From the NCBI GenBank assembly GCA_017624025.1, contig JAGANY010000041.1:1-61777 (forward strand): a DNA stretch of 61,777 bases. The letters are read 5' to 3'. This DNA comes from Ruminiclostridium sp. Lineage in GTDB: Bacteria; Bacillota; Clostridia; Oscillospirales; Ruminococcaceae. The notes under the pieces were generated by a model. That model was given only the letters and a program-made list of their open reading frames with translations. It was not told where the DNA came from and did no database searches. Shown piece after piece: positions 36,822-61,766 of this stretch. Every line of letters starts with the position of its first letter. Position 1 is the first letter of the stretch. The position numbers and the translations under genes were made by a program.

Positions 36822-37005
36822 ATTTATGAGCATTATTGAGGAAATCTCTTTTGAAAAAGGGGTATTCCTCAAACTCTTTTTCTAAAACTTTCAGTTTAAA
36901 TTCAAGACCCACAGGGTAATACCTTGTGGGTCTTGAATTTATATTAAAAGTCTTTGTAAGTGAGTTCGGGAGAAAGCCTTTCTTCAGAAAGGTTTCTCCC
37001 GATAA
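36822..37005 (+). repeat. Dispersed structured repeat, family R1, copy 1
   Basis: About 184 nt with three hairpins: A, TTGAGGAA/TTCCTCAA with inner CTCTTT/AAAGGG (36836-36872); B, a 17-bp stem over AAATTCAAGACCC/GGGTCTTGAATTT (36898-36940); C, CGGGAGAAA.../...TTTCTCCCG (36967-37001). A second copy lies at 61587-61766, with compensatory base changes in A and B. Spacers such as AAAACTTTCAGTTT and TATATTAAAAGTCTTTG are also conserved. It fills most of the gap between the SGNH and chemoreceptor genes. Confidence 0.85.
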
Positions 37006-37012
37006 TACTGGT

Positions 37013-38989
37013 TTAATCTCTTAAGTTAAATGCGCCGATTAAGTCCTTAAGCATAGCCGACTGGCTTGAAAGCTCTTCGGATGCTGCAGCACTTTCTTCT
37101 GCAGTAGCGGAGTTAGTCTGGACAACGCCGGAAATCTGGTCGATACCGACAGTAACCTGGCCTGCAGAAGCAGCCTGTTCCTTACTTGCTTCAGCAATGC
37201 TGTTTACAAGCTGGTTTACCTTTAATGTAGCTTCTGAAACCTTATTCATAAGCTCAGCAGTTTCTTCTACTATAGCACTGCCATTCTTAACAGCTTCAAC
37301 AGATTCTTCGATAAGAACGGTGGTATCGCTTGCTGCTTCAGCGGACTTAGAAGCAAGGTTTCTTACTTCGTCTGCTACAACGGCAAAGCCCTTACCGGCG
37401 TCTCCAGCTCTTGCAGCTTCAACTGCAGCATTAAGAGCGAGGATATTGGTCTGGAATGCGATATCTTCAATAGCCTTGATAATCTTGCTGATTTCTTCGG
37501 AAGAGCGGTTTATCTTATCCATAGCTTCGATAAGCTTCTTCATATGCTCGTTAGCACGCTGCATAGCTTCGTTTGTTTCGTTTGTGCTTATCTTTGCTAT
37601 TTCACAGCTTCCTGAAGTGCTGTTGATATGTTGGGAAATTTCGGTAAGTGTTGCAGCAAGTTCCTGAATTGAGCTTGCCTGTTCAGTTGCACCCTGTGAA
37701 AGAGACTGTGCACCGGCAGAAACCTGTTCGGAACCGCTCGATACCTGGTCAGCGGCAAGATTTATCTGTGCGAGAGTGTCGCTTAACTGTGTATTAATCT
37801 TCTTTACGGATTCATAAAGATTTGCATAATCTCCGGCATAAATAGAAGCGTTACAATCTGTATCAACGTTGAAGTTGCCTTCTGCCATAGAAGCGAGGAT
37901 ACGGTCAATGTCACGGATAATAGCATTCATACCTGTAACAAGCTCACCTGTTGCTTCGGCGAGGATATGTGTTTCGTCTCTTGTTTTTACTGTAGGAACT
38001 TCGCTTGTAAGGTCGCCTGCAACAACGCTCTTAAGTCTTTTGGAAACAGCCTTTATAGGATTGCCGATTGTAGTTCCGATAAATGTTGCGAGTACTATTG
38101 CAAGAGCTATGCCTACAACTACAATAATTACAACAACGAGTATTATTTCATATACTTCTGTAAGGAAGTCGGAAGCGTCGGCTCTTATTATAAGCGACCA
38201 GCCGTTTGTGTTTTCAACGGGAGCAAAGGCAACGATATTGTCCTTACCCTGGATTTTTGTCTTTTCATATCCGTGTTCACCGTGTTCCATCTTATCGTGG
38301 ATATCAGCGAGATTCTTAAGGGAAGAATCTGTTTCGGCAAGTATCTGGATATTTTCTGTTTCAGCGACCTTTGTGCCGTCCTTATGTGCAATCGTATTGC
38401 CTGCCGCGTCTATCAAATATGCCTGACAGCTATTGCTGAGATGAATCTGTGAAACGATGTCGTTAAGGAATGTTTCAGTAGGAACAACATATACGCATCC
38501 GATAACGTTAGTCCCTGATTCGCCGTTTTCCCAGAGAGGAGCAGCGATAATAATACTGATGTCTCCTGTAACTCTTGAAACAACAGGCTCAGAGATAGTA
38601 GCTTCGCCCTTCATTGCGTTTTTAAAATACTGACGGTCGGACATATCTGCACCGGTAGTTATATTTTTACCGCTTGCATCAAGAACAACACCTCGTATCA
38701 TTCCGTGTGCCTTTGCATGCTGTGTTACGAGTTCAACCTTTTGTTCGGGGGTAAATTCATCACCTGCAATAGCTTTAGAACTGCCAAGCTCAACTGCTAC
38801 GTTAAGATATGCTTCCATCTCCCATCTTACACGCTGTGCGGTAAGCTCTACGAGTTCGGTCATATCTTCTTCAAGACGAGTGTTGATACCCACGGTAGAA
38901 AGCGATGCAGAAACTACACCGAGTATAACGAGAGTAACGGCTACGAGGGTAATCATACTTACGATAATTGTGTGTTTTACAGATTTCAT
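37013..38989 (-). CDS. Methyl-accepting chemotaxis protein with dCache sensor
   Basis: The 658-residue receptor has membrane segments near 9-31 and 283-307, an extracellular dCache-like domain between them ([18 protein letters not shown]..., [19 protein letters not shown]), a HAMP region (about 308-360) and a long cytoplasmic signalling coil with the conserved tip [20 protein letters not shown]. The sensor type often binds amino acids or small organic acids. No flagellar or che genes are nearby; the pilus cluster is an alternative output. Confidence 0.95.
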
Positions 38990-39059
38990 TAGTTATGTAC
39001 CACCATTCTTTTTTGTTCTTCTCTCCCAAAAATATGAACTTTTTTATGTCTGTCTTTTT

Positions 39060-39088
39060 ATAATACCACTTTTTTCAATAAAAGTCAA
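39060..39088 (-). promoter_or_regulatory. Promoter of the chemoreceptor gene
   Basis: TTGACT (39088-39083), 17 nt, TATTAT (39065-39060) on the minus strand. Confidence 0.65.
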
Positions 39089-39199
39089 TTAAACACTTTA
39101 CTTAGTTATCGGTTTTCTATATTTTAAATAAAAAACCTTTCGTTTTTCTTGCCTTTGCCCTTTTAAATTGTGTAAATTGTTAAAAATTGTTTTTAATAT

Positions 39200-39228
39200 T
39201 GAATTATAATTTCATATATGTTATAATG
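39200..39228 (+). promoter_or_regulatory. Promoter of the GGDEF gene
   Basis: TTGAAT (39200-39205), 17 nt, TATAAT (39223-39228) with an extended TGT. The divergent gap 38990-39288 otherwise shows only AT-rich DNA. Confidence 0.65.
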
Positions 39229-39288
39229 TTTGTAATAGTATAGCTTCTTGTTATATTAAAATATTATGACTCCTAGAAGGAGGTAAAA

Positions 39289-41244
39289 ATGCTTAATAAG
39301 GGAAATATGAAAATAATCGGAGTTGTTCTTTGCGGAGCCCAGGATGAAGCTACTGCTGAACATATAACTCATATATCACACTATGCGGAAGAGCTTAACT
39401 ATAAGCTTCTTATATTCAATTCCTTTGCTGACTATTTTATGGACAACACTCCCGACAATCCCACAAAGGTTATCTATAAAATCATAAATTATGACATTCT
39501 CGACGGTATTATTCTTCTTTCGGAATCGATAAAAAGCAACGCTGTTATCGAAGAAGTCGTTGCGAGTGCAACCGCAAGAAATATACCTGTCGTTTCTATT
39601 CTAACGCCTGTAAAGGGGTGTTATAACATTACCTTCGATTTCCGCGAAAACTTCAAGCGTATTATCGACCACGTAATCGAAGAGCATAACTGTAAGCGTA
39701 TATATTTTGTAAGCGGTATAAAGGGTAATGATTTTGCCGAGGACAGGCTTAACTGTTACCGCGAATCTATGACCGAGCACGGTCTCGAAATAGATGAACG
39801 AGGAATAGGCTACGGCGATTTCTGGGACAGACCTACCTATGAGGTTGTTGAAAGATGGATTACCAACGACGCACTTCCTAAGCCCGACGCTATTATCTGT
39901 GCCAATGACTCTATGGCTATTGCAACCTGTATAAAGCTTTCCGAATTCGGATATAAGGTGCCCGACGATATTATTGTTACGGGTCACGACGGAATAGACG
40001 CTGAAAAATGTCATTCTCCGAGACTTACTACCGCTATAACAGATATAGAGGGTGCTTGTAAACGTGCCGTAAATGTTCTCGATGAGGTTATTAACGGCGG
40101 TGAACCCGATAAGGATATTGTTATCCCCTCTACTCTTATTACCTCCGAATCCTGTGGATGTAAGGAAATCTCAAACCTCGCTCTTAACCAGAAGATTTCC
40201 GAACTCTCTTCGAAGCTCGGTGAACAGTCGGGGTTTGAAAACCACCTTAATATGATGGCTATGATGCTTTCAGAGGATAACGATTTTGATGTATTCCGCA
40301 CCCATCTTGCTCAGTATATGGAATCTGCCTGGGCACACAGTGCGTGGATATGTCTTGCTCCGGGATGTATGAATCCGAGACCCCTTACAGCCGATGAGCT
40401 TGCTGACGATACTACCTATGAACCGCCCGAAACAAGATTCTTTGACGGCGATAAGCTTATGAACGTTCTCGCCTGGGAAAAAGGACAAACTTACGTTCCC
40501 AACAATATTGAATTTGACAGAAGCGATATACTGCCGAATCTTATTGAAAAGCTTGAAAAGCACAATATGATCTTCTTCTGTCCGATTTATTTCCGAAACT
40601 TAGCACAGGGATATATAGGTCTTTGCTGTCAGCCCGAATATGCTCCGTTCAAATTCACACAGACATTTATGAGCTACCTCAATATGATTCTTGAGGTAAT
40701 GAAGCAGAAGCTGTTCATCAATGCTGCCGTATCACAGCTTAAATCTATGTATATTCTCGACTTTATGACCTCACTTTACAACAGAAGAGGCTTTTACTCA
40801 AAGATTAAGCCGAGGCTCGAAAACTGTATAACCCTCCGCCACGATCTTGTGGTTGTATCAGTAGATATGGACGGGCTTAAATCGATAAACGATACATACG
40901 GTCATCGTGAAGGCGACTATGCAATAAAATCAATTTCAAACCTTCTTACTCTTGCGTCAGATGATAACTCCATTGTTGCACGTTTCGGCGGCGATGAATT
41001 TGTTGTTGCGGGAGTTTTCCCCAACGGCGAAGAGGTTGCAAAGCGTTTCGAAGAATCTCTTAAGAGAAAAATCGAAGCCTTCAACGAAATTTCCAATAAG
41101 CCTTATAAGATTTCCGCAAGCGTTGGTATCTCTATAACCAAGCCCGACGAAACAACAAATCTTGATGAGCTTATTGAGCTTGCAGACGAGATAATGTACC
41201 GTGAAAAGGAAACAAGAAAGCGTTTAAGAGGCACAAGAACCTAA
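39289..41244 (+). CDS. Diguanylate cyclase with a LacI-type periplasmic-binding sensor domain
   Basis: Residues 8-290 form a Peripla_BP_3-like sugar-binding domain like that of LacI regulators (GIILLSESI, DAIICANDSMAIATCIKLSEFGYKVPDDIIVTGHDG), ending in the SESCGC motif, but without a helix-turn-helix. A linker/GAF-like region follows, then a GGDEF domain with ARFGGDEFVVAG near residue 565. It should make c-di-GMP in response to a ligand bound in the cytoplasm. AAGGAGG lies 6 nt before the ATG. Two small genes follow closely. Confidence 0.93.
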   Translation: MLNKGNMKIIGVVLCGAQDEATAEHITHISHYAEELNYKLLIFNSFADYFMDNTPDNPTKVIYKIINYDILDGIILLSESIKSNAVIEEVVASATARNIPVVSILTPVKGCYNITFDFRENFKRIIDHVIEEHNCKRIYFVSGIKGNDFAEDRLNCYRESMTEHGLEIDERGIGYGDFWDRPTYEVVERWITNDALPKPDAIICANDSMAIATCIKLSEFGYKVPDDIIVTGHDGIDAEKCHSPRLTTAITDIEGACKRAVNVLDEVINGGEPDKDIVIPSTLITSESCGCKEISNLALNQKISELSSKLGEQSGFENHLNMMAMMLSEDNDFDVFRTHLAQYMESAWAHSAWICLAPGCMNPRPLTADELADDTTYEPPETRFFDGDKLMNVLAWEKGQTYVPNNIEFDRSDILPNLIEKLEKHNMIFFCPIYFRNLAQGYIGLCCQPEYAPFKFTQTFMSYLNMILEVMKQKLFINAAVSQLKSMYILDFMTSLYNRRGFYSKIKPRLENCITLRHDLVVVSVDMDGLKSINDTYGHREGDYAIKSISNLLTLASDDNSIVARFGGDEFVVAGVFPNGEEVAKRFEESLKRKIEAFNEISNKPYKISASVGISITKPDETTNLDELIELADEIMYREKETRKRLRGTRT

Positions 41245-41254
41245 GGAGGAGTAT

Positions 41255-41500
41255 ATGGCAAAATGGATAGACAAAAGCATTGACATTTCTTCTTTTTATG
41301 ACCGTTTAAGCAACGATTTAAAGGAGCTTATAGAAGAAGCAGAGCTTGCTGAAAAAGAAGAAAACGAAGGAAAATATATGGCTTTATGTGACAGCATCGA
41401 GGTTATCGGAAAGCTTCACGTTACGAGCGGACATATTTCCGAGTATGAATGGTGGAATATGCTTTGCAGCAGATATTTCCCGAGGGATTTAGGAGATTGA
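41255..41500 (+). CDS. Small acidic protein of unknown function
   Basis: The 81-residue protein (MAKWIDKSIDISSFYDRLSNDL..., ...GHISEYEWWNMLCSRYF) is helical and acidic. I do not recognise a family. It lies 10 nt after the GGDEF gene and 1 nt before the propeller gene, and has AGGAGG upstream, so the three are co-expressed. Confidence 0.75.
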   Translation: MAKWIDKSIDISSFYDRLSNDLKELIEEAELAEKEENEGKYMALCDSIEVIGKLHVTSGHISEYEWWNMLCSRYFPRDLGD

Positions 41501-41501
41501 T

Positions 41502-43271
41502 ATGAGTAAAAACAAAACAGGAAACGGTTTAAAGATAATTATTATAGTCCTCGCTTTATTACTTGTTATAGCTGTAGGCGTAATAGCGGTTTTACTTATT
41601 AATAATGATAAAGACAATATTTCCGATAAGAGCGATGATGAAATTGTAACGGAAGCCGAAGAAGAAGAAAAAGACCCCGAAGACGAGGATAATAAAAAAG
41701 ATAAAGACGAAGAAAAAACGGATTCGGTTTTTGAAGATATTTTTTCAAAGGAAGTAGAAAAAAGCGAGCTGCAATTTTTCTATAACGAAAAAGAAGGAAA
41801 AACTTATCTTATACTTAATGGTGAAGTGCTTGAGGATACGGTTGATGAAAAATTTACACCTGGAAGCTATAACAATTATTTGACAAAATCGCTACACAAC
41901 GATGTCTATTTTCTCGGATGTTACGCTATTAAGGATAAGAAACTGTATAAATTCACCGATGATATTTTGCAAGAAGTTATTTCATTTGTAAGATTCTCAA
42001 ATTATGGAGAGGGTGCTGCATTTATTTGTGATGACGGATTTGTACTTTACCGCTTCGATACAGGTAAAAAAGAAGTAATTTACGGCGAAGATGATGCTTC
42101 TGATTATATTCACACCTTTGCAATTTCTCCAGATGCTAAAACTGTTTTATATATGACTTATGATTATGAGTTGTATCTTTATAAAGACGGAAAAAGCCAA
42201 AAACTTGACGATGGATTTCAGGAATATGCAACAGTGGTCGCTGTATCAAATGATGGTGAATTCTGCTATGTTTTTGACGTATTTAGTGAAAACAAAACTT
42301 TTTACTGTTATAACTCCAACGGTGACAGAGATATAATATTTAATGCGAACGAATCTGGTCGTAGTTATGCTGTTGCTCCTATTGCTTTAAATATTGATAA
42401 TACACAGGTTTCTTGCTGTTTTCGTGATATTGGAGAAATGCTTGTTTATGATAGTACTACTAGTGTGAAAAATAAGTATTATTTCGAGCCGTCTGAACAT
42501 TCATCGAGCAGAGGTCTTGTCCCATCCGGAGAATACTGGTTTCAGCCACAAGAATATCTGAAAGAAGGCGACAGATATACAAATATAATCTTTACAGATG
42601 TTGAGAATTTAAACAATTGTTTTTATACAGGCGACAGAAATTCCTGTAGGTCTTACTATATTGATGGTGATGTGCTTAAAAAAATTTCTGAAAATAACTG
42701 CTGTCTCGATATTTCATCAGACAAAAGCGAATTATTCTGCTTTGATTACACAGATAATGTTCTTTATTATACAAATCTCAGTGAAAAAACCGTAGAAAAG
42801 GTCATTGATGAAATAATCTGCTTTGGCGTTACTCCAGATTTTACTCATATCTTCTATGTAACAAAAGATAATGAATTATATATTACTAATGCTGACGGAA
42901 GCGATAAGAAAAAGCTTGATAGTGATGTATGCGGAGAAAATTATTTTGAATCAAGTTCATTTGAAAACATAGGGGTTATATATCCTCGTATTCTTGGGAA
43001 TGAATATATAATCTACGGCACAAATGACGGTGATATTTATATGTGCGATATTGATGGCGAAAGAACAAGAATTAAAGCTGAACTTGATTTTAGAGATTCA
43101 GATTACTATGTTAACGACTATTCTAATTTATATGGAAGAATAATGGGTAACAGCTATAATCATTCGTTTTTATTCTCCAACCGTGATTTCATAACCTACA
43201 CAAACAACGGCAACCTTTATAAAATCGACAGCAACGGTAAAACCTCTCTTCTTTTAGAGAATGTTGAATAA
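41502..43271 (+). CDS. Membrane-anchored beta-propeller-like protein
   Basis: The 589-residue protein has one N-terminal membrane helix (about 12-33), an acidic Lys/Glu/Asp linker (about 37-80) and an extracellular body of repeated four-stranded blade-like units (YIHTFAISPDAKTVLYMTYDYELYLY, VAVSNDGEFCYVFD, ITNADGSDKKKLD) as in TolB/DPP-IV-type propellers. Function unknown; a role in surface binding is possible. Sequence is more AT-rich than neighbours in its middle. A strong terminator follows. Confidence 0.78.
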   Translation: MSKNKTGNGLKIIIIVLALLLVIAVGVIAVLLINNDKDNISDKSDDEIVTEAEEEEKDPEDEDNKKDKDEEKTDSVFEDIFSKEVEKSELQFFYNEKEGKTYLILNGEVLEDTVDEKFTPGSYNNYLTKSLHNDVYFLGCYAIKDKKLYKFTDDILQEVISFVRFSNYGEGAAFICDDGFVLYRFDTGKKEVIYGEDDASDYIHTFAISPDAKTVLYMTYDYELYLYKDGKSQKLDDGFQEYATVVAVSNDGEFCYVFDVFSENKTFYCYNSNGDRDIIFNANESGRSYAVAPIALNIDNTQVSCCFRDIGEMLVYDSTTSVKNKYYFEPSEHSSSRGLVPSGEYWFQPQEYLKEGDRYTNIIFTDVENLNNCFYTGDRNSCRSYYIDGDVLKKISENNCCLDISSDKSELFCFDYTDNVLYYTNLSEKTVEKVIDEIICFGVTPDFTHIFYVTKDNELYITNADGSDKKKLDSDVCGENYFESSSFENIGVIYPRILGNEYIIYGTNDGDIYMCDIDGERTRIKAELDFRDSDYYVNDYSNLYGRIMGNSYNHSFLFSNRDFITYTNNGNLYKIDSNGKTSLLLENVE

Positions 43272-43276
43272 AAAAT

Positions 43277-43308
43277 AAGGACTGTACAAAAAGTACAGTC
43301 CTCTTTTT
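43277..43308 (+). terminator. Terminator after the propeller gene
   Basis: AGGACTGTAC/GTACAGTCCT followed by seven T's. Confidence 0.9.
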
Positions 43309-44337
43309 TTATCCTCTTACGCCGAAAGCATAGATTGTAGTAAACTTGTATTCTTCGCCTGCCTTAAGGGTACAGTCGGGGAAGTTTGGCTGGTTGGGAG
43401 AGTCGGGAGCGTACTGGCTCTCTAAACAAAGTCCTGTCTGGAACTCTAATTTCTTTCCGTCCTTGCCGATTTCGCTTCCGTCAAGACCAATGGATGTGTA
43501 AAGCTGGATAGCGGGCTTGTCGGTATGTACTGTCATTTCGATACCCGTCTTTTCGCAATAAGCAACGGCCGCCTTTCTCATAACGTGAGGTTCGCCAAGC
43601 ATATAGTTGTGGTCGTAGCCTCTTAATATTTCGCCGTCAACATCCTTGCCGATAAGCTTAGCTGTTCTGAAATCAAAGGGAGTTCCTGTAACATCAGCAA
43701 GCTCGCCTGTAGGAATGAGTGCGGAATTTACGGGAGTATAGTAATCAGCGAAAAGCTGTAATTCGTGGCCGAGAACATCACCGCTGTGAATACCGCCGAG
43801 GTTGAAATAAGAATGGTTTGTAAGGTTAAGAACTGTGTCCTTGTCGCTTACACCCGTATATTCGAGCTTAAGCTCGTTGTCGTTTGTAAGTGTGTATGTA
43901 CAGGTTACTTTTACTGTGCCGGGGAAGTTTTCTTCACAGTCGGGGCTTAAATATCCGAATGTTACGCTGTTATCGGTTACCGCGTCAACAGTCCATACTC
44001 TCTTATTGAAGCCAACCATTCCGCCGTGGAGAGTATTTGTGTTTTCATTTGCAAAAAGTCTGTGTTCTTCGCCGTTTAAGGTGAACTTTGCGTTTGCGAT
44101 ACGGTTAGCATATCTGCCTACTAAAGCACCGTGTGAGGATGTGCCGTTAACATAGCCGTCGAGGTCATCATAACCGAGAACAACATCTTCGAATATGCCG
44201 TTTCTGTCGGGCACAAAAAGACTTACAACAGCACCGCTGAAGTTTGTAAGCTCAACCTTCATACCGTTTTCGTTTTCGATAGTGAAGAGCCACACCTTGT
44301 AGCCATTAAAAAAACCGTAATCTTTTCTTTCTACCAT
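43309..44337 (-). CDS. galM: Aldose 1-epimerase
   Basis: The 342-residue protein has the GalM catalytic histidine in LNLTNHSYFNLGG and the catalytic glutamate near FQTGLCLESQYAPDSPNQPNFP, plus the early motif VGRYANRIANAKFTLNG. It interconverts alpha and beta anomers of hexoses such as galactose or glucose. It lies downstream of the MBOAT gene on the same strand, 30 nt apart. Confidence 0.95.
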   Translation of the reverse strand: MVERKDYGFFNGYKVWLFTIENENGMKVELTNFSGAVVSLFVPDRNGIFEDVVLGYDDLDGYVNGTSSHGALVGRYANRIANAKFTLNGEEHRLFANENTNTLHGGMVGFNKRVWTVDAVTDNSVTFGYLSPDCEENFPGTVKVTCTYTLTNDNELKLEYTGVSDKDTVLNLTNHSYFNLGGIHSGDVLGHELQLFADYYTPVNSALIPTGELADVTGTPFDFRTAKLIGKDVDGEILRGYDHNYMLGEPHVMRKAAVAYCEKTGIEMTVHTDKPAIQLYTSIGLDGSEIGKDGKKLEFQTGLCLESQYAPDSPNQPNFPDCTLKAGEEYKFTTIYAFGVRG

Positions 44338-44367
44338 TGTTTTTACTCCTTTTAAAATATTGATTTA

Positions 44368-45771
44368 TCAGAACTGCCAATAAAGGAACGGGTTGTTGGT
44401 ATTCTCAACAAGGAGAATAGTACATATAATAAGTATTGCTATATTCGATATAATTGTTACGAAGCCGACAGCGTTTTCGCCTGCCGAGGTCTTCTGTAAA
44501 AGCATCTTAAGCTTCGGGATAACAGGAGTAGATACCGCTGCTGCAAAAAGAATAATAAAGATATTATTCATAAACGAGGTTTCCACGGAAATATCGGAAA
44601 ATGCGTTTCCGTTAGCACCTACAAGATTTCCGAAGAAAATTCCAAGTCTCGAAATATCAGTAAAATAGAAAATACCGAAACCGACTATTATTACTATTTT
44701 ATTATATATATGCATTATTACCTCGGGTATCTTTTTAAGACGCTTGCTTCCGAGAAGGCGTTCACCGAGAATAAACAAGCCATAGTAAAGACCCCAGATT
44801 ATATAGTTCCAGCTTGCACCGTGCCAGAAGCCTGTGCAGAACCATACAAGGAAAAGTCCGCCGTAAGGACGTCTCTTGCCGAAAATCGGAACATATAATA
44901 AGTAGTCACGGAAGAATGAACCGAGGGATATATGCCATCTCTGCCAGAATTCCGTTATGTTTTTACAGATAAAGGGATAGTTGAAGTTTTCGTCGAAATG
45001 AAAACCGAAAATTCGTCCGAGACCAATCGCCATATCCGAATATCCTGAGAAATCAAAATAAACATAGAGCGAATAGAGTATTACGCCGTACCAGGTTCCT
45101 AAAACAGATACATTAAGCAAATCACCGCCTAAGAACTGTTCAACGATAACGTGAAGTCCGTTAGCAAGAATTACTTTTTTTCCGAGACCTGTTATAAAAC
45201 GGGTTATTCCTTCGCTTGCATCAGAAACAGAAGTCGAACGATTATCTATTTCCCCGGAAATAGTGCTGTAACGGACAATTGGACCGGCAACAAGCTGCGG
45301 GAAGAGGGAAATATACATTAGAAGCTTGAAATAATTCTTCTGTACGGGAACCTTGCCCCAGTATGCGTCCATTATGTAGGAGATAATCTGGAAGGTATAA
45401 AAGCTTATACCGATTGGAAGCTCTATTCCCGTAAGCGGAATCTCTGTTCCGAGTACCCCGTTTATGTTTGTAATAAAAAAGTCTGTGTATTTAAAAACGA
45501 TAAGCATTCCAAGACTAAGTACAAGGGAACAAGCTACACCAATCTTTGCTTTTCCCGTACCCTTCCACTTATCTATAAGAAGACCACATAAATAGTTACC
45601 TGTTACACTTACAAGAAGCAGTAACAACCATACAGGACTGCTCCACGCATAGAAGATAAGCGAAAAAACTACAAGCACTATGTTTCGGTAAATCGTCTTT
45701 TTACTTATAAAATAGACAGGAATACAAAGTGCAAGAAATATATATAAAAAGAATAAATCCGAAAAAACCAT
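44368..45771 (-). CDS. MBOAT family O-acyltransferase (AlgI/DltB-like)
   Basis: The 467-residue polytopic protein has the MBOAT signature with the catalytic histidine region GFWHGASWNYIIWGLYYG (about residue 325) and the upstream WQRWHISLGSFFRDYLLYVP. It should transfer acetyl groups across the membrane to an exopolysaccharide or cell-wall polymer. The usual extracellular AlgJ/DltD-type partner is not adjacent. It is transcribed with galM. Its upstream side faces the large gene-free region. Confidence 0.92.
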   Translation of the reverse strand: MVFSDLFFLYIFLALCIPVYFISKKTIYRNIVLVVFSLIFYAWSSPVWLLLLLVSVTGNYLCGLLIDKWKGTGKAKIGVACSLVLSLGMLIVFKYTDFFITNINGVLGTEIPLTGIELPIGISFYTFQIISYIMDAYWGKVPVQKNYFKLLMYISLFPQLVAGPIVRYSTISGEIDNRSTSVSDASEGITRFITGLGKKVILANGLHVIVEQFLGGDLLNVSVLGTWYGVILYSLYVYFDFSGYSDMAIGLGRIFGFHFDENFNYPFICKNITEFWQRWHISLGSFFRDYLLYVPIFGKRRPYGGLFLVWFCTGFWHGASWNYIIWGLYYGLFILGERLLGSKRLKKIPEVIMHIYNKIVIIVGFGIFYFTDISRLGIFFGNLVGANGNAFSDISVETSFMNNIFIILFAAAVSTPVIPKLKMLLQKTSAGENAVGFVTIISNIAILIICTILLVENTNNPFLYWQF

Positions 45772-46525: not shown

Positions 46526-46559
46526 AAAGCGGAGCAAACTTACGTTTACTCCGCTTTTC
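46526..46559 (-). terminator. Terminator after the membrane XRE gene
   Basis: AAAAGCGGAG/CTCCGCTTTT with inner AAAC/GTTT forms a long stem with T's on the minus strand after the gene stop. Confidence 0.8.
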
Positions 46560-46578
46560 TGAACTTGTTGTCTTCCTG

Positions 46579-47031: not shown

Positions 47032-47153
47032 ATCAATGCCCTCCTTAATATTCTGTGCCCTTATTATAACAAAGCATCCCCCGTTACCTCAAGCAACGCA
47101 TATTAACATCCGTAAAAAAGCCTCCCGTTATCCGAGAGGCTTTTAAACATTCA

Positions 47154-48227: not shown

Positions 48228-48248
48228 TTTTTAATTTCCTCCTTATTA

Positions 48249-51103: not shown

Positions 51104-51111
51104 TAAACAAA

Positions 51112-51181: not shown

Positions 51182-51185
51182 GCGA

Positions 51186-52139: not shown

Positions 52140-52153
52140 AATATTACGCCTCC

Positions 52154-53335: not shown

Positions 53336-53357
53336 TGCGTTATCCTTTCTTTTAATT

Positions 53358-53379
53358 ACCCGCCCGTTTAAGGGCGGGT
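53358..53379 (-). promoter_or_regulatory. Intercistronic hairpin in the pilus operon
   Basis: ACCCGCCC/GGGCGGGT, an 8-bp GC-rich stem, lies between the PilX-like and the zinc-ribbon prepilin genes, with AATTAAAAG after it on the minus strand. It may act as mRNA stabiliser or partial terminator. Confidence 0.6.
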
Positions 53380-53388
53380 ATTAAGAAA

Positions 53389-56082
53389 TCAGCCGATATA
53401 GTTGCTTCCTGCTACATCCCAGATATCAACGTGGGAAGGAGAGGAATAAGTGCCTGTTCCGGGAGGAGCGGTAGGAGGTGTACCGGGTGTGCCGGGTGTA
53501 CCGCCGCCGGGTTTTCCGCCTGTTAAGGATCCGGTCATAGCCGAAATTCTTGAAGGCTTGGGTTCAGCGTAGTAAATATAGGAAGTACCTGCACGATATG
53601 TTGAACAGATCATAGCTCCGAAGAGAGGATTTGTACCACCGGCAAGCTCCTTGTTGTTAACTTCGCCGTTAGGAGCATAGATAAATCCACAGAATGTATT
53701 CTGGATTCTTGTCATATCAATAGCTATTGCATTGTTAGCGTTAGAGATAAGCATAAACTGGTTTTCATACTGGGGAAGGGGAGTATTTGTACCTGGCTGG
53801 CACATAGTGGCTGCCTTGCTGTCACTCATATTGCCGTCTGTACCAATAACACCAATCTGTGCAGCGTTACCTACTACTTCCTTATATCCAGCGATATAAA
53901 GAGCAGTTGCTGTTGTTGCATAGTTGTTATAGTTGTAAGGAGCATAGGTTGCAGAGGGAGCATATACAGGCTGCATAATCTCAAACCATTCGCCTTCAGC
54001 ATCCTGTGCCCACTGACCTGTACCAACTTCACCGACCTGAACCTGAGTAAGTGTACTCGGATCATAGTTAGCCATTTCAAGTGTTACGTTACCGTCGCCT
54101 ACTGCAACTACCTGACCCCAGCTACCATTGTTATTGTAGTTGGTGCCCTGCCAAGCAAAAGCAGGATCATCAGCAGTTGTATCTGTATCGTCGGGATTAG
54201 CGTCAACAAGAATGTTGGGAAGAAGAACAACAGGCATTGTTCCAGCAGTACCTGAAGCATCTTCAGTATGGATGTTGTAAACAATCTGAGCACTGCCGCC
54301 GCCGATGCTGGATACACTGGAGGCAACAATATTAAGTGCACAGCCGTTAGCATTATAGGGAATATCAACAGTAACCACACTGCTGGGGCTAGAGGTTGCG
54401 GTTCTTATAGTAAGACCGTTAGGACCTGTGTAACCCCAATAATCAGTTACATCGTCACCGTCAGTATCAATTTCAGAAAGAAGGCTGAAATCGATAGTAA
54501 GAACATTAGCATATGCAGTTGCAGGGCTGGTATAGTTTTCATAAACGACATTTTCGCCTGCCTGCTGTTCAATAGCACCGCTTACGGATGTATTGTTTGT
54601 TACAGTTTCAAAGCTGTCTGATGTTGAATTAGGAACACGGTTAGTAACAGTAACCTGAATATCATCGGCATTGAATGTTCCGATAGCATTTCCTGCTGTG
54701 CTGGCAGAAGCACCACTGCTGATAGAATTGCTTGTGCCGCCGTTTACTGTAATAGTTGCTGTATCAGTTACAGGTGTTCCGTTAGGAAGGAATAATGTTC
54801 CGTTACAGTCGAAATCACCGGATACCTTAAATGTGTCATTAGAATCGGCACTATCATACTTAGGAGGATATCCTTCTGTAGTTGCGTTAGCTAAAGCAGA
54901 AGCAACGGGATTACCATCTTCATCTAAAACTGTATCGCCCATCTGGTAGTAGATATTGCCTGTAACGTGGAGATTGCCGTTAATTGTGGGAGAACCGTGA
55001 GATATGATATAAAGGTCGCCCTCAACATAGATATCAGTAGCAGTTATCTGTGCACCGTCGCCGGAGAGTACCAAATCTCCGCCTACATAAAGGTTATTGT
55101 CGTACTGGTTGTTATTGTTAAGGTCAAAGCTGTTGGCATTTGAGCCTAACATAACGAAGTCACCGCCGATATACCAGTCGTTACCGCTGCCCTGGATATT
55201 TGTTGTAAACTTATCGAGGTAGATAGAACCTGTAGATGTAACAGAACCTAAGAAGGTATTGTTATTACCGTTTACAAAGAAGGTATGATCGTTCTGGTAG
55301 AAAGCGTCATCGTTGATCTGATGAGCCTTGATTTCTACGATACGGGAAGTACGTACGATACCTGTACCGCCGTTGTTTTCGCCGATTACCTGACCTGTGG
55401 AGGTGAAGTATCTGTCAAATAATCCGCCGCCAGGTCCGGGAGTAGGAGGTGTAGGAGGTGTTCCGGGAGAACCGGGGTCGGGAGTCCAGACCTTAGACTT
55501 TACAGTCATTATGGAGTCCTGTACCGAAATAGTATTATTACGATAATATGCGGTTGTTGTAAATGTGTACTCATACTTAAAGAAGAATGTGTACTGACCT
55601 AAAGATGTATCAGGACCTGCAACAGGTGCAGAATACTGCTGTGTATTATCTTTAAGTTCGATTTCAATTTTTACGCCGTCAATTACGCCTGATATAATGG
55701 AATCAGCGTTTACAAGCTGAGAAAGAATTGTTTCGTCGCTTGCAGACGGTGTGGAAATGTTCTGGCTGGAAGCAGTAATCTTATCGCCGATCGTTTCCAT
55801 AGTTAAAACTGCGTCACGGAGAGGCTGATAATTGTTAACACCTACACCGTTTGCCGAACCGATAGGATCATTACCTACAGCGGACGCAACCATATCAGAA
55901 ACGGAGATAGCGGAAAGATAAAGCTGGGAGTAGTTATAGTTGCTTACAACGGAGTTATAAGCACTTCTTGCTGTATAATATGCGGTTGACGCCATAGTAA
56001 TAAGCAATGCCATAACAGCGATAACAGCAAAAAGAACTGCACCCTTTTTCTGCTTCATTCTGCCAATACGCTTCATCAGCAT
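53389..56082 (-). CDS. Large PilX-like pilus protein with a bactofilin-like beta-helix
   Basis: The 897-residue protein has a PilX-like N-terminus (KQKKGAVLFAVIAVMALLITMAS) without a clear prepilin E5. A Pro/Gly linker (GSPGTPPTPPTPGPGGG, about 205-222) leads to a beta-helix-like stretch (GDFVMLGSNANS, NLYVGGDLVLSGDG, VEGDLYIISHG, VTGNIYYQ) as in bactofilins. Another Ser/Thr/Asp-rich part and a second Pro/Gly tail follow. It is a plausible pilus-tip adhesin or scaffold. GGAGGT is 7 nt before the start. Confidence 0.82.
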   Translation of the reverse strand: MLMKRIGRMKQKKGAVLFAVIAVMALLITMASTAYYTARSAYNSVVSNYNYSQLYLSAISVSDMVASAVGNDPIGSANGVGVNNYQPLRDAVLTMETIGDKITASSQNISTPSASDETILSQLVNADSIISGVIDGVKIEIELKDNTQQYSAPVAGPDTSLGQYTFFFKYEYTFTTTAYYRNNTISVQDSIMTVKSKVWTPDPGSPGTPPTPPTPGPGGGLFDRYFTSTGQVIGENNGGTGIVRTSRIVEIKAHQINDDAFYQNDHTFFVNGNNNTFLGSVTSTGSIYLDKFTTNIQGSGNDWYIGGDFVMLGSNANSFDLNNNNQYDNNLYVGGDLVLSGDGAQITATDIYVEGDLYIISHGSPTINGNLHVTGNIYYQMGDTVLDEDGNPVASALANATTEGYPPKYDSADSNDTFKVSGDFDCNGTLFLPNGTPVTDTATITVNGGTSNSISSGASASTAGNAIGTFNADDIQVTVTNRVPNSTSDSFETVTNNTSVSGAIEQQAGENVVYENYTSPATAYANVLTIDFSLLSEIDTDGDDVTDYWGYTGPNGLTIRTATSSPSSVVTVDIPYNANGCALNIVASSVSSIGGGSAQIVYNIHTEDASGTAGTMPVVLLPNILVDANPDDTDTTADDPAFAWQGTNYNNNGSWGQVVAVGDGNVTLEMANYDPSTLTQVQVGEVGTGQWAQDAEGEWFEIMQPVYAPSATYAPYNYNNYATTATALYIAGYKEVVGNAAQIGVIGTDGNMSDSKAATMCQPGTNTPLPQYENQFMLISNANNAIAIDMTRIQNTFCGFIYAPNGEVNNKELAGGTNPLFGAMICSTYRAGTSYIYYAEPKPSRISAMTGSLTGGKPGGGTPGTPGTPPTAPPGTGTYSSPSHVDIWDVAGSNYIG

Positions 56083-56121
56083 GGGTATGACCTCCTTTCG
56101 TGGGTCTGTGTGTCAAAAAAC

Positions 56122-57051
56122 TTACTGGTTAACTACGATGGATACGCCGGAAGCATCAATTGTTTCGAGCTCTTCCATCTGTTCAACGCCGAAGAACATA
56201 ATTTCAACAGGAACAGTAACTTCTGTTTCGTCTGTACAAGGTGTAGCTGTATCTATTTTTTCGCCAGCAGCATTTTCAATCTGTTCTTCTTCTTCTTCAA
56301 CTTCAACAGTCATAGGAATTTCAACAGTTTCCATATATGTTGCTCTGTCAAGGCCGTAAATGTAGTCAAGGAATGCGAGGTAGTCCTTGTATGTACCTGT
56401 TACTTCAAGAGAAACAGAAATAACGCTGACTGTCTGGACTGTATCTGTTGATACTGCAAGCTTACATAAAGCTTCCTTATAAGCCTTCTTCATTGTGTCG
56501 GAATACTTGCTTACTTCAACAGTATTGCCTTCTTCGTCAAGAATAGAGATGCTTGTGATTTTATCGGCAACGATTGTGTACTTCTTGTCGCCGTCCTTGA
56601 ATTCGCCTTCTAAGAGTACTTCTCCTTCTGTACCTCTTGCAGACTGTGAATAAGCCTTAAGGTCATAGATTACAGGAGTTTCTTCGTAGATTTCGAGTTC
56701 AAGGTCTTCAGTTGTAAGAAGCTCAGCTTCAATTTCAAGAGTGGTAAGATTGCTCTTAGCAAGATGAGCGTGTACGATTTCTACTGCTTCGTATGTTGTA
56801 AGGTCAGGATAGAATCCGCCTTCGAGTGTTTCAGCACTCTTCTTTGCTTCCTTGATTTCATCATCGATTGTTGCTTCACGGGAAAGCTCAGCATTAAGCT
56901 CTTCTTCTTCCTTCTGGATAGCTGTAAGCTTGTTTTTGGAAGCATCAATGCCATCCTTGGCAGGCTTAATAAAGAGGAAAATACCTCCGGCAATAATTGC
57001 ACCTACTACAAGAATAATAATAATTGCTTTTTCGATTTTACTTAAGTTCAA
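56122..57051 (-). CDS. pilO: Type IV pilus assembly protein PilO-like
   Basis: The 309-residue protein has a short cytoplasmic start, one membrane helix (about 9-29), a coiled coil (about 35-75, ...KNKLTAIQKEEEELNAELSREATIDDE) and a globular C-terminal part with VTGTYKDYLAFLDYIYGLDRATYMETVEI, similar to PilO. It aligns the inner-membrane platform with PilM/N. It overlaps the PilM-PilN gene by 14 nt. Length is above the usual 200. Confidence 0.85.
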   Translation of the reverse strand: MNLSKIEKAIIIILVVGAIIAGGIFLFIKPAKDGIDASKNKLTAIQKEEEELNAELSREATIDDEIKEAKKSAETLEGGFYPDLTTYEAVEIVHAHLAKSNLTTLEIEAELLTTEDLELEIYEETPVIYDLKAYSQSARGTEGEVLLEGEFKDGDKKYTIVADKITSISILDEEGNTVEVSKYSDTMKKAYKEALCKLAVSTDTVQTVSVISVSLEVTGTYKDYLAFLDYIYGLDRATYMETVEIPMTVEVEEEEEQIENAAGEKIDTATPCTDETEVTVPVEIMFFGVEQMEELETIDASGVSIVVNQ

Positions 57052-58573
57052 CGTTGTTACCTCCCTTTATTCTCATTGTAAGTTCACATTCATAGAAGAT
57101 ATCGGGTTCAACTTCCTGACCGTTTTCAGATTCAGCACCTTCGTTGATATCTTCGCCCTTATAGCCTGTAAATACAATGCCTTCAAAATAATCCTGTTCA
57201 ATAAGATTTCTTACATACTTTGTAGGAATAGACTGATCCTTTGTCTGGAGTTTAACGGTTACGTTATAACCGGAAACAGCAATCTTATCGATAAGGTAAG
57301 TAGTTTCGTCGAATTCGGCAAGAGCCTTAAGGAGATTATCTCTTACAGCTGTTGTTGTCTTAGGGAGATATTCGAAGAGGGTGTTTGCTGTAAGGAGGTT
57401 ATCCTGATAAAGCTGGATGTTATCACATACTGTAATCTTTTCTTTAAGTGCAGCTCTTCTTGCATCAATTTCAGCATTGTGGATTCTTGCGTCAATTTCT
57501 GCCCATTCTTCATCATAACCCTTAGCAATGTTATTCATAGCGAAGGTTACTGCTGCAACAGCTGCAGCGGATGCAACAGCGATAAGAACAACAGCAATAA
57601 GGAACTTACTTGTGCCCTTCTTTTCCTTAACAGCAGAAGAATCGAGAAGGTTGATGTGGTCGAGATCCTTTCTTACTTTAAAGAACGCACCGATTGCATT
57701 AGCATATTCAGAGAAGTCAAAGTCACAGAATGTAACAATGTTGTTGGGCATATTAAGAATATGTGCAGGAACATTGAAAGAAGATACTGCGTTGGAAAGA
57801 GCGATAAAGTCTCTTACCTGACCATAGAACATAATTTCCTTGAGAGGTCTTGCGTCCTTTCTCTGAGAAATAAACTGAATTGTACGGAATACGTTATCGT
57901 AAACAGCCTGGTTTACGTAATCTTCGTCATTACCGTAGTCATAGGGGTCGATTCTTACGTAACGGTTAAGTGTAACCTGGCCGTTTTCATAGAGGTTGAT
58001 ATTTACGAAGTCGTTATCAACCTGTACAAGCATAAGAGGCATAGCTGACTCGAGCTTGGGAGTGTTGAGGATTAAACGGGAAATACAGTTGTTGGAAATG
58101 TTGATCTGCTTTAAGTTAAGACCGAGCTGAGTGAAAAGACGGATATAACCATCAACCATTCTCTGGGGGCAGGCTGTAGCAAGAAGCTGGAGCATAGGAG
58201 CGTCATTTTCGTCCTTTGTTTCGCCTACGATGGAATATGATATATTATATTCCTTTGTGATACCCATTGTGTTGAGGATCATAGCTTCGATAGCCGCGGA
58301 GTTTGAAATTTTCTTAGGCTTCGGAATTGTAAGTTCCTTATAAAGGATAGAACCGGAGTTGATACAAACGATTGCTTCCTTTTCCTTGATATTCTTTGTT
58401 GCGATAATATCGGTAATTTCACCTGCAACCATAGGAATATCGGTAATATAGCCGTTGCTTACGCTTCCGACAGTTAAATCTCTTGTTTCAACCTCAAGAA
58501 CACGGATTTTGTTACCGCTTAAGGTTCCGCGGACAAGCTTCACCTGCTTGTCGGTAATATCAATAGATAACAT
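57038..58573 (-). CDS. pilM: PilM-PilN fusion protein
   Basis: Residues 1-300 are PilM-like (actin fold: MLSIDITDKQVKLVRG, TQLGLNLKQINISNNCISRL, MLVQVDNDFVNINLYENGQV). INLL at 307-310 matches the start of PilN proteins, and a membrane helix at 323-346 and a periplasmic coiled-coil region follow. PilM and PilN normally are separate but bind each other (PilN's INLLP tail docks in PilM), so this fusion makes the contact permanent. It lies between pilC and pilO. Confidence 0.88.
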   Translation of the reverse strand: MLSIDITDKQVKLVRGTLSGNKIRVLEVETRDLTVGSVSNGYITDIPMVAGEITDIIATKNIKEKEAIVCINSGSILYKELTIPKPKKISNSAAIEAMILNTMGITKEYNISYSIVGETKDENDAPMLQLLATACPQRMVDGYIRLFTQLGLNLKQINISNNCISRLILNTPKLESAMPLMLVQVDNDFVNINLYENGQVTLNRYVRIDPYDYGNDEDYVNQAVYDNVFRTIQFISQRKDARPLKEIMFYGQVRDFIALSNAVSSFNVPAHILNMPNNIVTFCDFDFSEYANAIGAFFKVRKDLDHINLLDSSAVKEKKGTSKFLIAVVLIAVASAAAVAAVTFAMNNIAKGYDEEWAEIDARIHNAEIDARRAALKEKITVCDNIQLYQDNLLTANTLFEYLPKTTTAVRDNLLKALAEFDETTYLIDKIAVSGYNVTVKLQTKDQSIPTKYVRNLIEQDYFEGIVFTGYKGEDINEGAESENGQEVEPDIFYECELTMRIKGGNNVELK

Positions 58574-58640
58574 TTATGTGACCATTCCTTTCCTGAAAGA
58601 GGGATTTCCTCTCTGATTTGAATTTTTGATTTTTGTTGGA

Positions 58641-59834
58641 TTATGCACCCATGTTGCCCATACCGCCGTAGAGAATCGGGAATACACCGGCAAGGATCAT
58701 ACCGATCATAATACCCATAAAGATAATCATACACGGTTCAAGTAAGCCTACGAGCTTGCTGATAGCTGTATCTGCTTCGTCTTCGTAATAGTCAGCAGAC
58801 TTGGAAAGAATATCATCAAGTGCACCGGATTCCTCACCTACCATTATAATAGAGGTAAAGATACCGGGGAAGATACCTGTTTTCGCAATAGCAGCGGAGA
58901 GAGATTCACCGTGCTTAACGTCTTCAACAACATGTTCGTGGAAGGTTGTCTGAATATATGAGTTGTTAAGTGTATCAACTGATTTTTCAATACAGTCAAC
59001 CATCTGAAGACCTGAAGCGAAAAGGTTTGCCATTGTTCTCGCAAAACGGGAAACATAGATTGTCGAAAGAAGAGGACCTACCTTAGGGAACTTAATCAAC
59101 ATCTGGTCAACCTTATATCCGATCTTAGGGTTCTTGACAAGAACTCTTATAATGAAAATAAGAACAACCGCTACAAGAATAATAACCCACCAGTAACCAA
59201 TCATAAAGTCAGAGATACCGAACATTGCCGCTGAAAGCGGAGGAAGTTCGTCTCCGGCAAGGTCGCGGAACATCGGCATGATGAAGATAAACAGACCGAA
59301 GAATACACCTATTAAGAGGATACCGAGGATCATAGGATATGTCATAGCACCCTTGATCTTGTTGTTTGTTTTGTTTTCATTTGCATAGTGGTCAGCTACA
59401 CGGGTCATGATAGAGTCAAGGTTACCTGACGCTTCACCGGCAGCAACCATACTTACGAAAAGGTTCGGGAAAACACCCGGACGGGACTGGATCGCTTCAG
59501 AGAACGAACGACCCTTCTGAACATCTTCGTAGATTTCGAGGAGAACCGCTTTCGCTTTTTTGTTTTCCTCCTGTGAGTAAAGAATATGTAAGCTTTTTAC
59601 AAGGCTGATACCCGCTGTAAGCATTGATGCAAGCTGTCTGCACATAAATGCTAAATCGGCGGTTTTAAATTTGTACTTTGCGTCCTGCTGCTTTTCTTCG
59701 ATCTGGGTATATTGAGTACAGAAAAGATTTTTCTCTCTTAATTTCGAGGTTAAGTCGAGATAATCATCCGCATACTCTTTTCCTTTTACCTTAACACCAT
59801 TGGCATCAGTCGCAACGTATGAGAAATATGCCAT
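58641..59834 (-). CDS. pilC: Type IV pilus inner-membrane platform protein PilC
   Basis: The 397-residue protein (MAYFSYVATDANGVKVKGKE...) has two T2SSF domains with FMCRQLASMLTAGISLVKSL and SRFARTMANLFASGLQMVDC and three to four membrane helices. It is the polytopic platform turned by PilB/PilT. The ATG at 59834 is chosen over a GTG at 59840, because GGAGG is 6 nt from the former. It is the first gene of the long pilus operon. Confidence 0.95.
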   Translation of the reverse strand: MAYFSYVATDANGVKVKGKEYADDYLDLTSKLREKNLFCTQYTQIEEKQQDAKYKFKTADLAFMCRQLASMLTAGISLVKSLHILYSQEENKKAKAVLLEIYEDVQKGRSFSEAIQSRPGVFPNLFVSMVAAGEASGNLDSIMTRVADHYANENKTNNKIKGAMTYPMILGILLIGVFFGLFIFIMPMFRDLAGDELPPLSAAMFGISDFMIGYWWVIILVAVVLIFIIRVLVKNPKIGYKVDQMLIKFPKVGPLLSTIYVSRFARTMANLFASGLQMVDCIEKSVDTLNNSYIQTTFHEHVVEDVKHGESLSAAIAKTGIFPGIFTSIIMVGEESGALDDILSKSADYYEDEADTAISKLVGLLEPCMIIFMGIMIGMILAGVFPILYGGMGNMGA

Positions 59835-59885
59835 GTACACCCTCCGTTCATGTTTATTTATTAATGCGCCTATGTATGTAATTAT

Positions 59886-59914
59886 ATTATATCATAGTAA
59901 AACTTATATAACAA
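59886..59914 (-). promoter_or_regulatory. Promoter of the pilus operon
   Basis: TTGTTA (59914-59909), 17 nt, TATAAT (59891-59886) with extended TGA. The leader is only about 45 nt, too short for a riboswitch. Confidence 0.75.
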
Positions 59915-60077
59915 TAGTGTAGTCTTACAAAATTATAACTTTTATTTTGTGAAAAAAGTATTATTTAATGGTTACTAAGTTACATTTTTGTTACCATTTT
60001 TATTAAAAAAAGGCTCTTTTTAAGCAAAAATTTGCCTTTTTAAAAGATATTGTTACCGCTCTCGAAAACGATTCCAG

Positions 60078-60111
60078 CTTAATTTACTTAAATTAAGTTA
60101 ATCGCTTGTGC
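60078..60111. promoter_or_regulatory. Candidate operator TTTA-CT-TAAA (site C)
   Basis: CTTAATTTA-CT-TAAATTAAG is a perfect 9+2+9 inverted repeat, centred near 60088, about 65 nt upstream of the GH130 promoter. TTGTGC follows at 60106-60111. Sites A and B have the same core and neighbour motif. Confidence 0.5.
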
Positions 60112-60154
60112 ATTTTTACCTAAATCCGGATTTTTATTTGTTTATTTTAGCGTA

Positions 60155-60183
60155 TTGACATTAACAGTTTTATTCTATATAAT
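60155..60183 (+). promoter_or_regulatory. Consensus promoter of the GH130 gene
   Basis: TTGACA (60155-60160), 17 nt, TATAAT (60178-60183), a perfect match. Confidence 0.85.
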
Positions 60184-60266
60184 GAATATGTAAAGCGGAA
60201 TATTACCGCACATTAATTAAGGAACAACACCCGTTGTGTCTGTTCCCGATGAAAGGACGAAAACCA

Positions 60267-61274
60267 ATGAACGTAAAGATTTTTAACCAGCCTTCTCTCC
60301 CCAATATGCCCTGGCAGGACAGACCCGAAGGCTGCAAGGATGTAGTATGGCGTTACGATGCTAACCCCATTATCCCCAGAGATTTACTCCCCACAAGCAA
60401 CTCTATTTTCAATAGTGCTGTTGTTCCTTTTGAAAAGGGCGACTATAAGTTTGCAGGTGTATTCCGTGTTGACGACAAGGAAAGAAACATGGCTATCCAC
60501 GCTGGTTTCTCCAAGGACGGTATCCACTGGGATATCAACGAAAAGAAGGTTGAATGGATAAACGACGATCCCGAAACTGCTGAAGCTAATCCCTGGCAGT
60601 ACGGCTACGACCCCAGATGTGTATGGATCGAAGACAGATTCTGGATCACATGGTGTAACGCTTACGGCTGGAAGCCCACAATCGGTATGGGCTGGACAAA
60701 GGATTTCGTAGAATTCCACCAGATCGAAAACGCTTACCTCCCCTTCAACAGAAACGGCGTTCTTTTCCCCAGAAAGATCAACGGCGAATACGTAATGTTC
60801 TCCCGTCCTTCTGACAGCGGTCACACACCTTTCGGCGATATGTACCTCTCTCACTCCAAGGATATGACATACTGGGGCAAGCACAGACACGTTATGGCTC
60901 CTAACAAGGGTTGGGAATCCAAGAAGATTGGTGCCGGTCCTATCCCGATTGAAACAAGCGAAGGCTGGCTCGTATTCTACCACGGCGTTCTCGAAAGCTG
61001 TAACGGTTTCGTATATAGCTTCGGCGCTGCTATCCTCGATATTGACAAGCCCTGGGTTGTTAAGTATCGTTGCGGCGAATATCTCCTTAACCCCCGTGAG
61101 TACTACGAATGTGTAGGCGACGTTCAGAACGTAACATTCCCCTGTGCTGCTCTTTGCGACGGCGATACAGGTAGAATTGCTATCTACTACGGCTGTGCTG
61201 ATACTTGTGTATCTATGGCATTCTGTACAGTAGATGAAGTTGTTGAATACGTTAAGTCTCACTCCTGCATCTAA
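60267..61274 (+). CDS. GH130 beta-mannoside phosphorylase
   Basis: The start at 60267 ([20 protein letters not shown]) follows AAAGGA by about 10 nt and yields 335 residues, the usual GH130 length. Segments such as [51 protein letters not shown] and [19 protein letters not shown] match the GH130 beta-propeller. It should phosphorolyse beta-1,4-mannosyl linkages of mannooligosaccharides, giving mannose-1-phosphate; 4-O-beta-mannosylglucose is an alternative substrate. The enzyme is cytoplasmic and would act on sugars brought in by an ABC importer. Confidence 0.92.
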
Positions 61275-61289
61275 TTAAACATATTTTTA

Positions 61290-61317
61290 AGGGCAGTCCG
61301 CAAGGGCTGCCCTTATT
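61290..61317 (+). terminator. Terminator after GH130
   Basis: AAGGGCAG/CTGCCCTT encloses TCCGCAAGGG; TATTATTTTAT follows. Confidence 0.75.
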
Positions 61318-61346
61318 ATTTTATATGATTTATTACAAAAGAATAA

Positions 61347-61372
61347 GTCATCTCATAAGAGATGACTTTTTA
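61347..61372 (-). terminator. Terminator of tRNA-Gln
   Basis: AAGTCATCTC/GAGATGACTT with ATAA loop, followed on the minus strand by TTATTCTTTT, just after the tRNA 3' end. Confidence 0.75.
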
Positions 61373-61377
61373 ATGTT

Positions 61378-61453
61378 TGGTTGGGGTGGAAGGATTTGAA
61401 CCCTCGAAATGGCGGAGTCAGAGTCCGATGCCTTACCACTTGGCGACACCCCA
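61378..61453 (-). tRNA. tRNA-Gln (anticodon CTG)
   Basis: On the minus strand TGGGGTG pairs with CACCCCA, a D arm (CGCCAAGTGGTAAGGC) and an anticodon loop CTCTGAC (anticodon CUG, reads CAG) are present, and the T arm has TTCAAAT. CCA is encoded. The first base pair of the anticodon stem appears to be a mismatch. Length is 76 nt. A terminator follows. Confidence 0.93.
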
Positions 61454-61586
61454 ATATTTACTTGCTTCATTCAGCTTATATATAATATCACATTTTTATC
61501 TGCTTGTCAATACTTTTTTAAAAATTTTTTTAAAAACTTTTTATATATACCATTATAATATATACCTGTGTTGTTGTCACAGTAGT

Positions 61587-61766
61587 ATTTATGAGTATTA
61601 CCGAGGGAAACCCTTTTGAAAAAGGGCTTCCCTCGGGCTCCCTTCCGAAAACTTTCAGTTTAAATTAAAGAACCACAGGATTAACCTGTGGTTCTTTAAT
61701 TTATATTAAAAGTCTTTGGAAGAGGGTTCGGGAGAAAGCCTTTCTTCAGAAAGGTTTCTCCCGATA
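61587..61766 (+). repeat. Dispersed structured repeat, family R1, copy 2
   Basis: About 180 nt. Hairpin A is CCGAGGGAA/TTCCCTCGG (61601-61636), B AAATTAAAGAACCACAGG/CCTGTGGTTCTTTAATTT (61662-61702), C CGGGAGAAA/TTTCTCCCG (61729-61763). The spacers and hairpin C match copy 1 at 36822-37005; stems A and B differ from it by paired changes. The window ends 11 nt later. Confidence 0.85.

Follow-up and report, generated by a model that had tools for sequence, protein, structure and literature searches.

The window, by which we mean the whole stretch of 61,777 nucleotides analysed here, contains two copies of a repeat on the + strand, copy 1 at 36822–37005 and copy 2 at 61587–61766. Copy 1 is a three-hairpin core whose outer arms lack complementarity. 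The 3' end of a gene for a methyl-accepting chemotaxis protein abuts it (37013–38989, − strand; an ORF with Pfam MCPsignal and dCache_1 matches), and a gene for a GDSL-like lipase/acylhydrolase lies on its other side (35487–36644, − strand; an ORF with a Pfam Lipase_GDSL_2 match). Copy 2 adjoins a tRNA-Gln (61378–61453, − strand), and its right arm is unreadable because the contig ends at 61777 and cuts the copy.

According to the MFE structures, hairpin A, which forms the left end module, occupies 36836–36872 in copy 1 and 61601–61636 in copy 2 (all these parts being on the + strand). It is followed by a central stem-loop B with its closing stem (36873–36965 and 61637–61727, respectively) and then by hairpin C, the right end module (36966–37002 and 61728–61764). 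The closing stem of B is long and had been overlooked in the preliminary description of this DNA. The fold z-scores of the two copies were −11.5 and −11.2, and none of 200 shuffled sequences was equally stable in either case. Both copies are atypical of the family, copy 2 because the contig end truncates it and copy 1 in that the two genes around it lie on the same strand and its arms are unpaired (arm-pairing score 8).

The two stretches had been presented as having three hairpins in common, with order and orientation preserved and paired substitutions in two of them, and all of this could be reproduced. They can be aligned from one end to the other without reversing either copy; the outer stem of hairpin A reads TTGAGGAA/TTCCTCAA in one copy and CCGAGGGAA/TTCCCTCGG in the other; in hairpin B, TTCAAG/CTTGAA corresponds to TTAAAG/CTTTAA and GACCC/GGGTC to GAACC/GGTTC; hairpin C is identical. 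An Rfam scan of the window returned only tRNAs and the S10 leader above threshold, both outside the repeat, and all matches of the repeat itself to Rfam families fell below the gathering cut-off. The leader that exceeded the Rfam cut-off is an S10-Clostridia ribosomal protein leader at 746–825 (− strand).

Architecture of the Repeat Unit

Two further features had escaped the preliminary description. The first is that hairpin C is an inverted copy of hairpin A, which makes the unit near-palindromic. This relationship, visible in copy 1 from both-strand matching as well as from the MFE structure, is supported by opposite-strand matches at 72–80% for 38 of 40 scored places in the genome from which the window comes (hereafter the source genome). 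In each end module the hairpin (A or C) is accompanied by a linear segment that is conserved around CTCCCTTCC-AAAACTT, and the two inverted modules enclose stem-loop B, which varies freely.

The second feature is that many copies have outer arms that are complementary to one another, with a pairing specific to the locus. When they are included, the unit grows from about 180 bases (the core) to about 265. Of 51 source-genome copies, 26 had an own-pair arm score above the 99th percentile for 2550 cross-pairs, and in 37 the own partner was the best or tied; these counts come from the n = 51 window setting, and the settings with an offset of at least 20 (n = 53) were left out because of two artefact rows from cut copies. 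Many arms carry visible A-tracts and T-tracts. Judged by eye, the arms also show a weak family consensus, which recurs in a relative, genome G022. Given the paired outer arms, such a unit could be extruded over its full length of about 265 bp to form a single branched cruciform. A copy from R. flavefaciens YRD2003 (L240:1858–2135) has additional sequence inserted within hairpin A; its folding energy, computed with 60-nt flanks on each side, is −257 kcal/mol.

Copy Number and Distribution

The source genome is that of a gut bacterium (1.6 Mb, 58% complete). With positions 36815–37010 as the query, 40 of 40 scored places in this genome matched at 85–100%, the query itself included (scoring covered 40 of the 108 first-look candidates). 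A covariance model, R1, built from 34 source-genome copies, identified 85 distinct places in the same genome, a figure that counts contig-end fragments and weak matches and for which 150 of 1310 first-look candidates were scored. Several contigs of the source genome terminate inside copies of the repeat. One contig (C57, L127:1533–5078) contains three weak model matches, with 85–102 bits, within about 3.5 kb.

A DNA search detected the repeat in nine of 60 genomes, the source genome included, and all nine belong to the same genus; repeats of the same architecture are thus present in congeners. A second model, R2, which combined 22 sequences from six species, was applied with stricter filters. 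It was positive in ten of 118 genomes of the family, again including the source genome, and in two of 196 genomes across the class, namely the source genome and one genome of the same family. A pattern scan of named genomes returned at least 113 stretches. Among the 80 matches listed, 67 came from Ruminococcus, 25 of these 67 being from R. flavefaciens (including FD-1, XPD3002, YAD2003, YRD2003, Y1 and ND2009), and model R1 matched 78 of the 80 loci. On this basis, the bacterium that carries the window is probably a Ruminococcus close to R. flavefaciens. Similar folded cores occurred in sequences whose titles do not name Ruminococcus (L271, L243, L272, L222, L281; one Desulfovibrionaceae), for which bin contamination may be the explanation. 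An exact-pattern scan of viral sequences with hairpin C gave no match.

The suggestion that the two window stretches belong to a dispersed family was therefore borne out by covariance-model searches, which found further copies in the source genome and in relatives. An absence of further copies and stem changes that are not compensatory had been named as the findings that would speak against it, and neither occurred. Searches of the open-licence PMC literature for a Ruminococcus repeat agree with the earlier statement that no described family with this pattern was known: among the matches listed, this repeat of R. flavefaciens-group bacteria was found in none of the libraries or open-licence papers that we searched.

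Position Relative to Genes

We extracted 56 source-genome copies with their flanks and used the 50 that had 600 nt or more on each side to assess gene context. Most of them (34 of 50) lay between convergent ORFs, 15 lay at a single 3' end and one lay at none. By comparison, of the 52 pairs of adjacent ORFs counted in the window, seven are convergent (Fisher p = 1.2e-8, with a small background and crude ORF calls). The preference recurred in two relatives, with 14 of 19 copies between convergent ORFs in G022 and five of eight in G009; in the low-copy genomes G029, G005, G035 and G011, just three of ten copies were so placed. The distances from stop codon to hairpin formed a main cluster near 47–55 nt and a second one at 35–38 nt, and in some copies of the second cluster a TAA within the arm itself serves as the stop codon. 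Four other convergent gaps in the window, of 37–127 nt, are filled by short hairpins with T-tracts.

Orthologous gaps were sought in five congeners with two chimeric protein queries, composed of pieces, some incomplete, that came from at most 18 of the 27 convergent pairs that were eligible. By eye, and among the matches listed, at least two convergent gene pairs were conserved. The repeat was absent at the L004 pair in G022 and G004, and at the L007 pair in G004. All three repeat-free gaps contained a short hairpin followed by a T-tract, a predicted terminator-like arrangement that is clearly bidirectional in two of them. The simpler reading is that the repeat at L004 and L007 was gained in the lineage of the source genome, loss elsewhere being the alternative. 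Checking the boundaries against relatives that lack the copy, as had been recommended, succeeded to the extent that these three sites were found; the gap sequence at all three proved to be replaced, and no target-site duplication could be read. Moreover, the hairpin stem present in the relatives is missing from the filled L004 site, so that the junction there is not explained by a simple insertion into a terminator loop. This site, together with the weak arm consensus that recurs in G022, weakens the idea that the repeat inserted into terminator loops whose stems were kept as its outer arms. For the IspF site, none of the 29 congener loci examined yielded the convergent neighbour; in the case of another copy, a homologue of the neighbouring gene was found in one of 39 congeners.

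The repeat might be a host-adapted bidirectional terminator or 3'-end stabiliser, with a fold selected for the convergent transcripts and the spread of the family being only its origin. The bias towards convergent gaps and the narrow distance from both stops would suit such a role, as would the A- and T-tracts at many arms and the terminator-like hairpins that occupy the same place at the three orthologous repeat-free sites. We nevertheless regard this explanation as unlikely. In the window copies no T-run follows hairpin A or hairpin C, and short T-tract hairpins fill four convergent gaps elsewhere in the window; the repeat is missing in most of the sampled congeners and family members; and some copies, copy 1 among them, are neither convergently flanked nor provided with paired arms. 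Selection for termination could still be a cause of the arm pairing.

Relationships among Copies and Inversions

In the source genome, G022 and G009, copies group by species. The nearest relative of a copy was another copy of the same species in 55 of 55 cases in the source genome, 20 of 20 in G022 and ten of ten in G009. The counts were four of five in G029, none of two in G005 and one of two in G035, and in the close pair formed by G029 and G005 such grouping is lacking. Four sites are shared by the source genome and G022. At three of them the two occupants were not closer to each other than the mean to other G022 copies, and at the fourth they were closer by 0.9 points. The grouping by species, along with the lack of closeness at shared sites, suggests that copies have been overwritten inside their genomes or else inserted anew at preferred sites. 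Each of the five G029 copies examined shares its site with a partner in G005 (one partner being cut by a contig end), so that recent movement is not seen in this pair of genomes.

In one of the four complete orthologous pairs between G029 and G005, the core is inverted in place (score of 160 when inverted vs 88). Opposite orientation was also recorded at three of four checked sites shared by the source genome and G022, as judged from the better-scoring model strand and with about 12 flank matches in all; here, independent insertion is another possible cause. A segment of about 2.3 kb between two source-genome copies (L118, contig C9) appears inverted in G022 (L170). Comparison of L189 with L059 showed that, beside a shared repeat, G029 has about 500 bases that are absent from G005.

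Covariation and Strand Preference

Among the 34 source-genome copies, changes on both sides of a pair were found at 8 pairs and in 49 cells, compared with 4.3 and 15.1 after shuffling. For 22 copies from six species the corresponding figures were 22 pairs and 118 cells, vs 14.9 and 37.5, and 96.6% of the cells in this set were paired. A measure of further pair types gave no excess over shuffles in either set. The stems, as had been claimed from the two window copies, thus keep pairing while their sequence drifts, and they do so with true covariation both within the genome and between six species.

The strand on which the fold is more stable differed among genomes. It was the + strand in 20 of 20 G022 copies and the − strand in five of five G029 copies (copies of the same species not being independent of each other), and in the source genome the + strand was more stable in 35 of 51 copies by a mean of 1.2 kcal/mol, meaning that the strands are nearly equal. 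Arm mismatches displayed no consistent G-U or strand bias, with counts of 117 vs 129 in the source genome, 64 vs 41 in G022 and 38 vs 48 in the others; the counts refer to arms at least 60% alike, and the positional arm statistics are ungapped and blurred by indels. The absence of a consistent strand and of a consistent mismatch bias argues against a single conserved functional RNA strand and fit a process at the DNA level.

These observations bear on the two identities that had been offered for the repeat. Its description as MITE-like agrees with a short unit that has inverted repeats at both ends and occurs in many copies. The other identity was a repeated non-coding RNA. Taken as a structured RNA whose functional molecule is one of the two strands, it draws on the strong covariation, on an architecture conserved in six species and on fold z-scores of about −11, and it is very doubtful in view of a stable strand that changes from G022 to G029 and is not clearly either one in the source genome, of mismatches without consistent strand bias, of cores inverted in place and of the lack of any Rfam family at the cut-off.

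Template switching between inverted repeats has been described in yeast genes, where it reportedly homogenises arms and inverts spacers (PMC8604942), and template switching has been reported to create and maintain RNA hairpins (PMC8794818). The conserved fold on which the preliminary description insisted is real. Its further argument, that the paired changes point to selection on the fold, is weakened by these reported effects of template switching and by the in-place inversion of a core found here.

Mobility

No long version of the repeat and no parent element with matching ends emerged from a search in which a right end was sought within 4 kb of each left end or up to the contig end. Where both ends were present (54 cases), they were separated by 25–125 nt; for 27 of the 81 left-end matches no right end was found, and several of these had ample room for one. 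Inspection by eye of the ORFs surrounding five copies (in G011, G029 and G035) revealed no transposase-like gene. Full matches to PF01797 were obtained in the source genome, G009 and G011, and G029 gave a partial match with an internal stop. The domain was not found in the remaining five of the eight other carriers, namely G022, G005, G034 and G035 (96–100% complete) and G007 (80% complete). The sole Y1 gene found in the source genome (L061, contig C60) encodes 161 aa, is of the IS200 type and has ends unrelated to the repeat; it looks like an ordinary IS200.

REPINs and BIMEs are inverted pairs of REPs that are associated with RAYTs, and typical REPINs are several times shorter than the present unit. 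That the repeat is a true REPIN moved by a RAYT (a Y1 HuH transposase) is hardly tenable, despite its two inverted, extragenic hairpin modules in high copy number and its species-specific populations in the source genome, G022 and G009, given the length of the unit, the IS200-like nature of the source genome's own Y1 gene (in a genome 58% complete) and the five carriers without a PF01797 match, on account of which RAYT mobilisation was rejected.

Interpretation and Comparison with Known Systems

On balance, the two window stretches are probably copies of a non-autonomous, near-palindromic repeat of the MITE/REPIN kind, belonging to the Ruminococcus lineage, whose arms are kept complementary largely by template switching. 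Copies would spread or be overwritten within a genome with the aid of an enzyme encoded elsewhere, and they would survive mainly in the 3' gaps of convergent genes, where the outer stem could serve as a terminator. Most paired changes would arise when the DNA polymerase switches template between the arms during replication, an event that would rewrite one arm from the other and occasionally invert the core. Selection would act only by removing copies in which the fold is broken.

A bolder proposal is that the repeat represents a new class of mobile DNA, a self-correcting cruciform that replaces bidirectional terminators between convergent genes and moves without a Y1 enzyme, template switching during replication rebuilding its arms and inverting its core so that dozens of copies in a genome stay paired while drifting. 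We consider this quite improbable.

Covariation is commonly read as a sign of a selected RNA. The present family pairs clear covariation with signs of a DNA-level process, namely copy-specific arms, in-place inversion of the core and no favoured strand. The family could serve to test how far template switching imitates selection, as a genome can hold dozens of copies and some of these occupy orthologous sites in related species. Contigs end at the repeat, at least one small inversion appears to coincide with it, and it may supply terminators.

Several known systems resemble the repeat in part. It shares with REPINs and BIMEs the two inverted hairpin modules, the extragenic location and the high copy number. 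It differs from them in being much longer, in having a central stem and outer arms that pair, and in that five of its eight other carriers lack a PF01797 match. The paper PMC3733652, whose title names GTAG/CGTC tags, likewise places REPs mainly between unidirectional and convergent ORFs.

Bacterial MITEs, including the pneumococcal BOX, RUP and SPRITE elements, are likewise small, have inverted repeats, fold tightly and are enriched in convergent gaps; according to PMC3049150, the pneumococcal repeats are over-represented between convergent genes, and SPRITE lies near 3' ends and may terminate transcription. Unlike these elements, the present repeat was found with neither a target-site duplication nor a parent IS, its arms are locus-specific and complementary, and both its sequence and its host are different.

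Quasi-palindromes that evolve by template switching share with the repeat the homogenisation of arms and the inversion of the spacer (PMC8604942; PMC8794818). The subjects of those studies are inverted repeats of yeast genes and of RNA genes, whereas here template switching would act on a dispersed family that occupies about 85 places in one genome.
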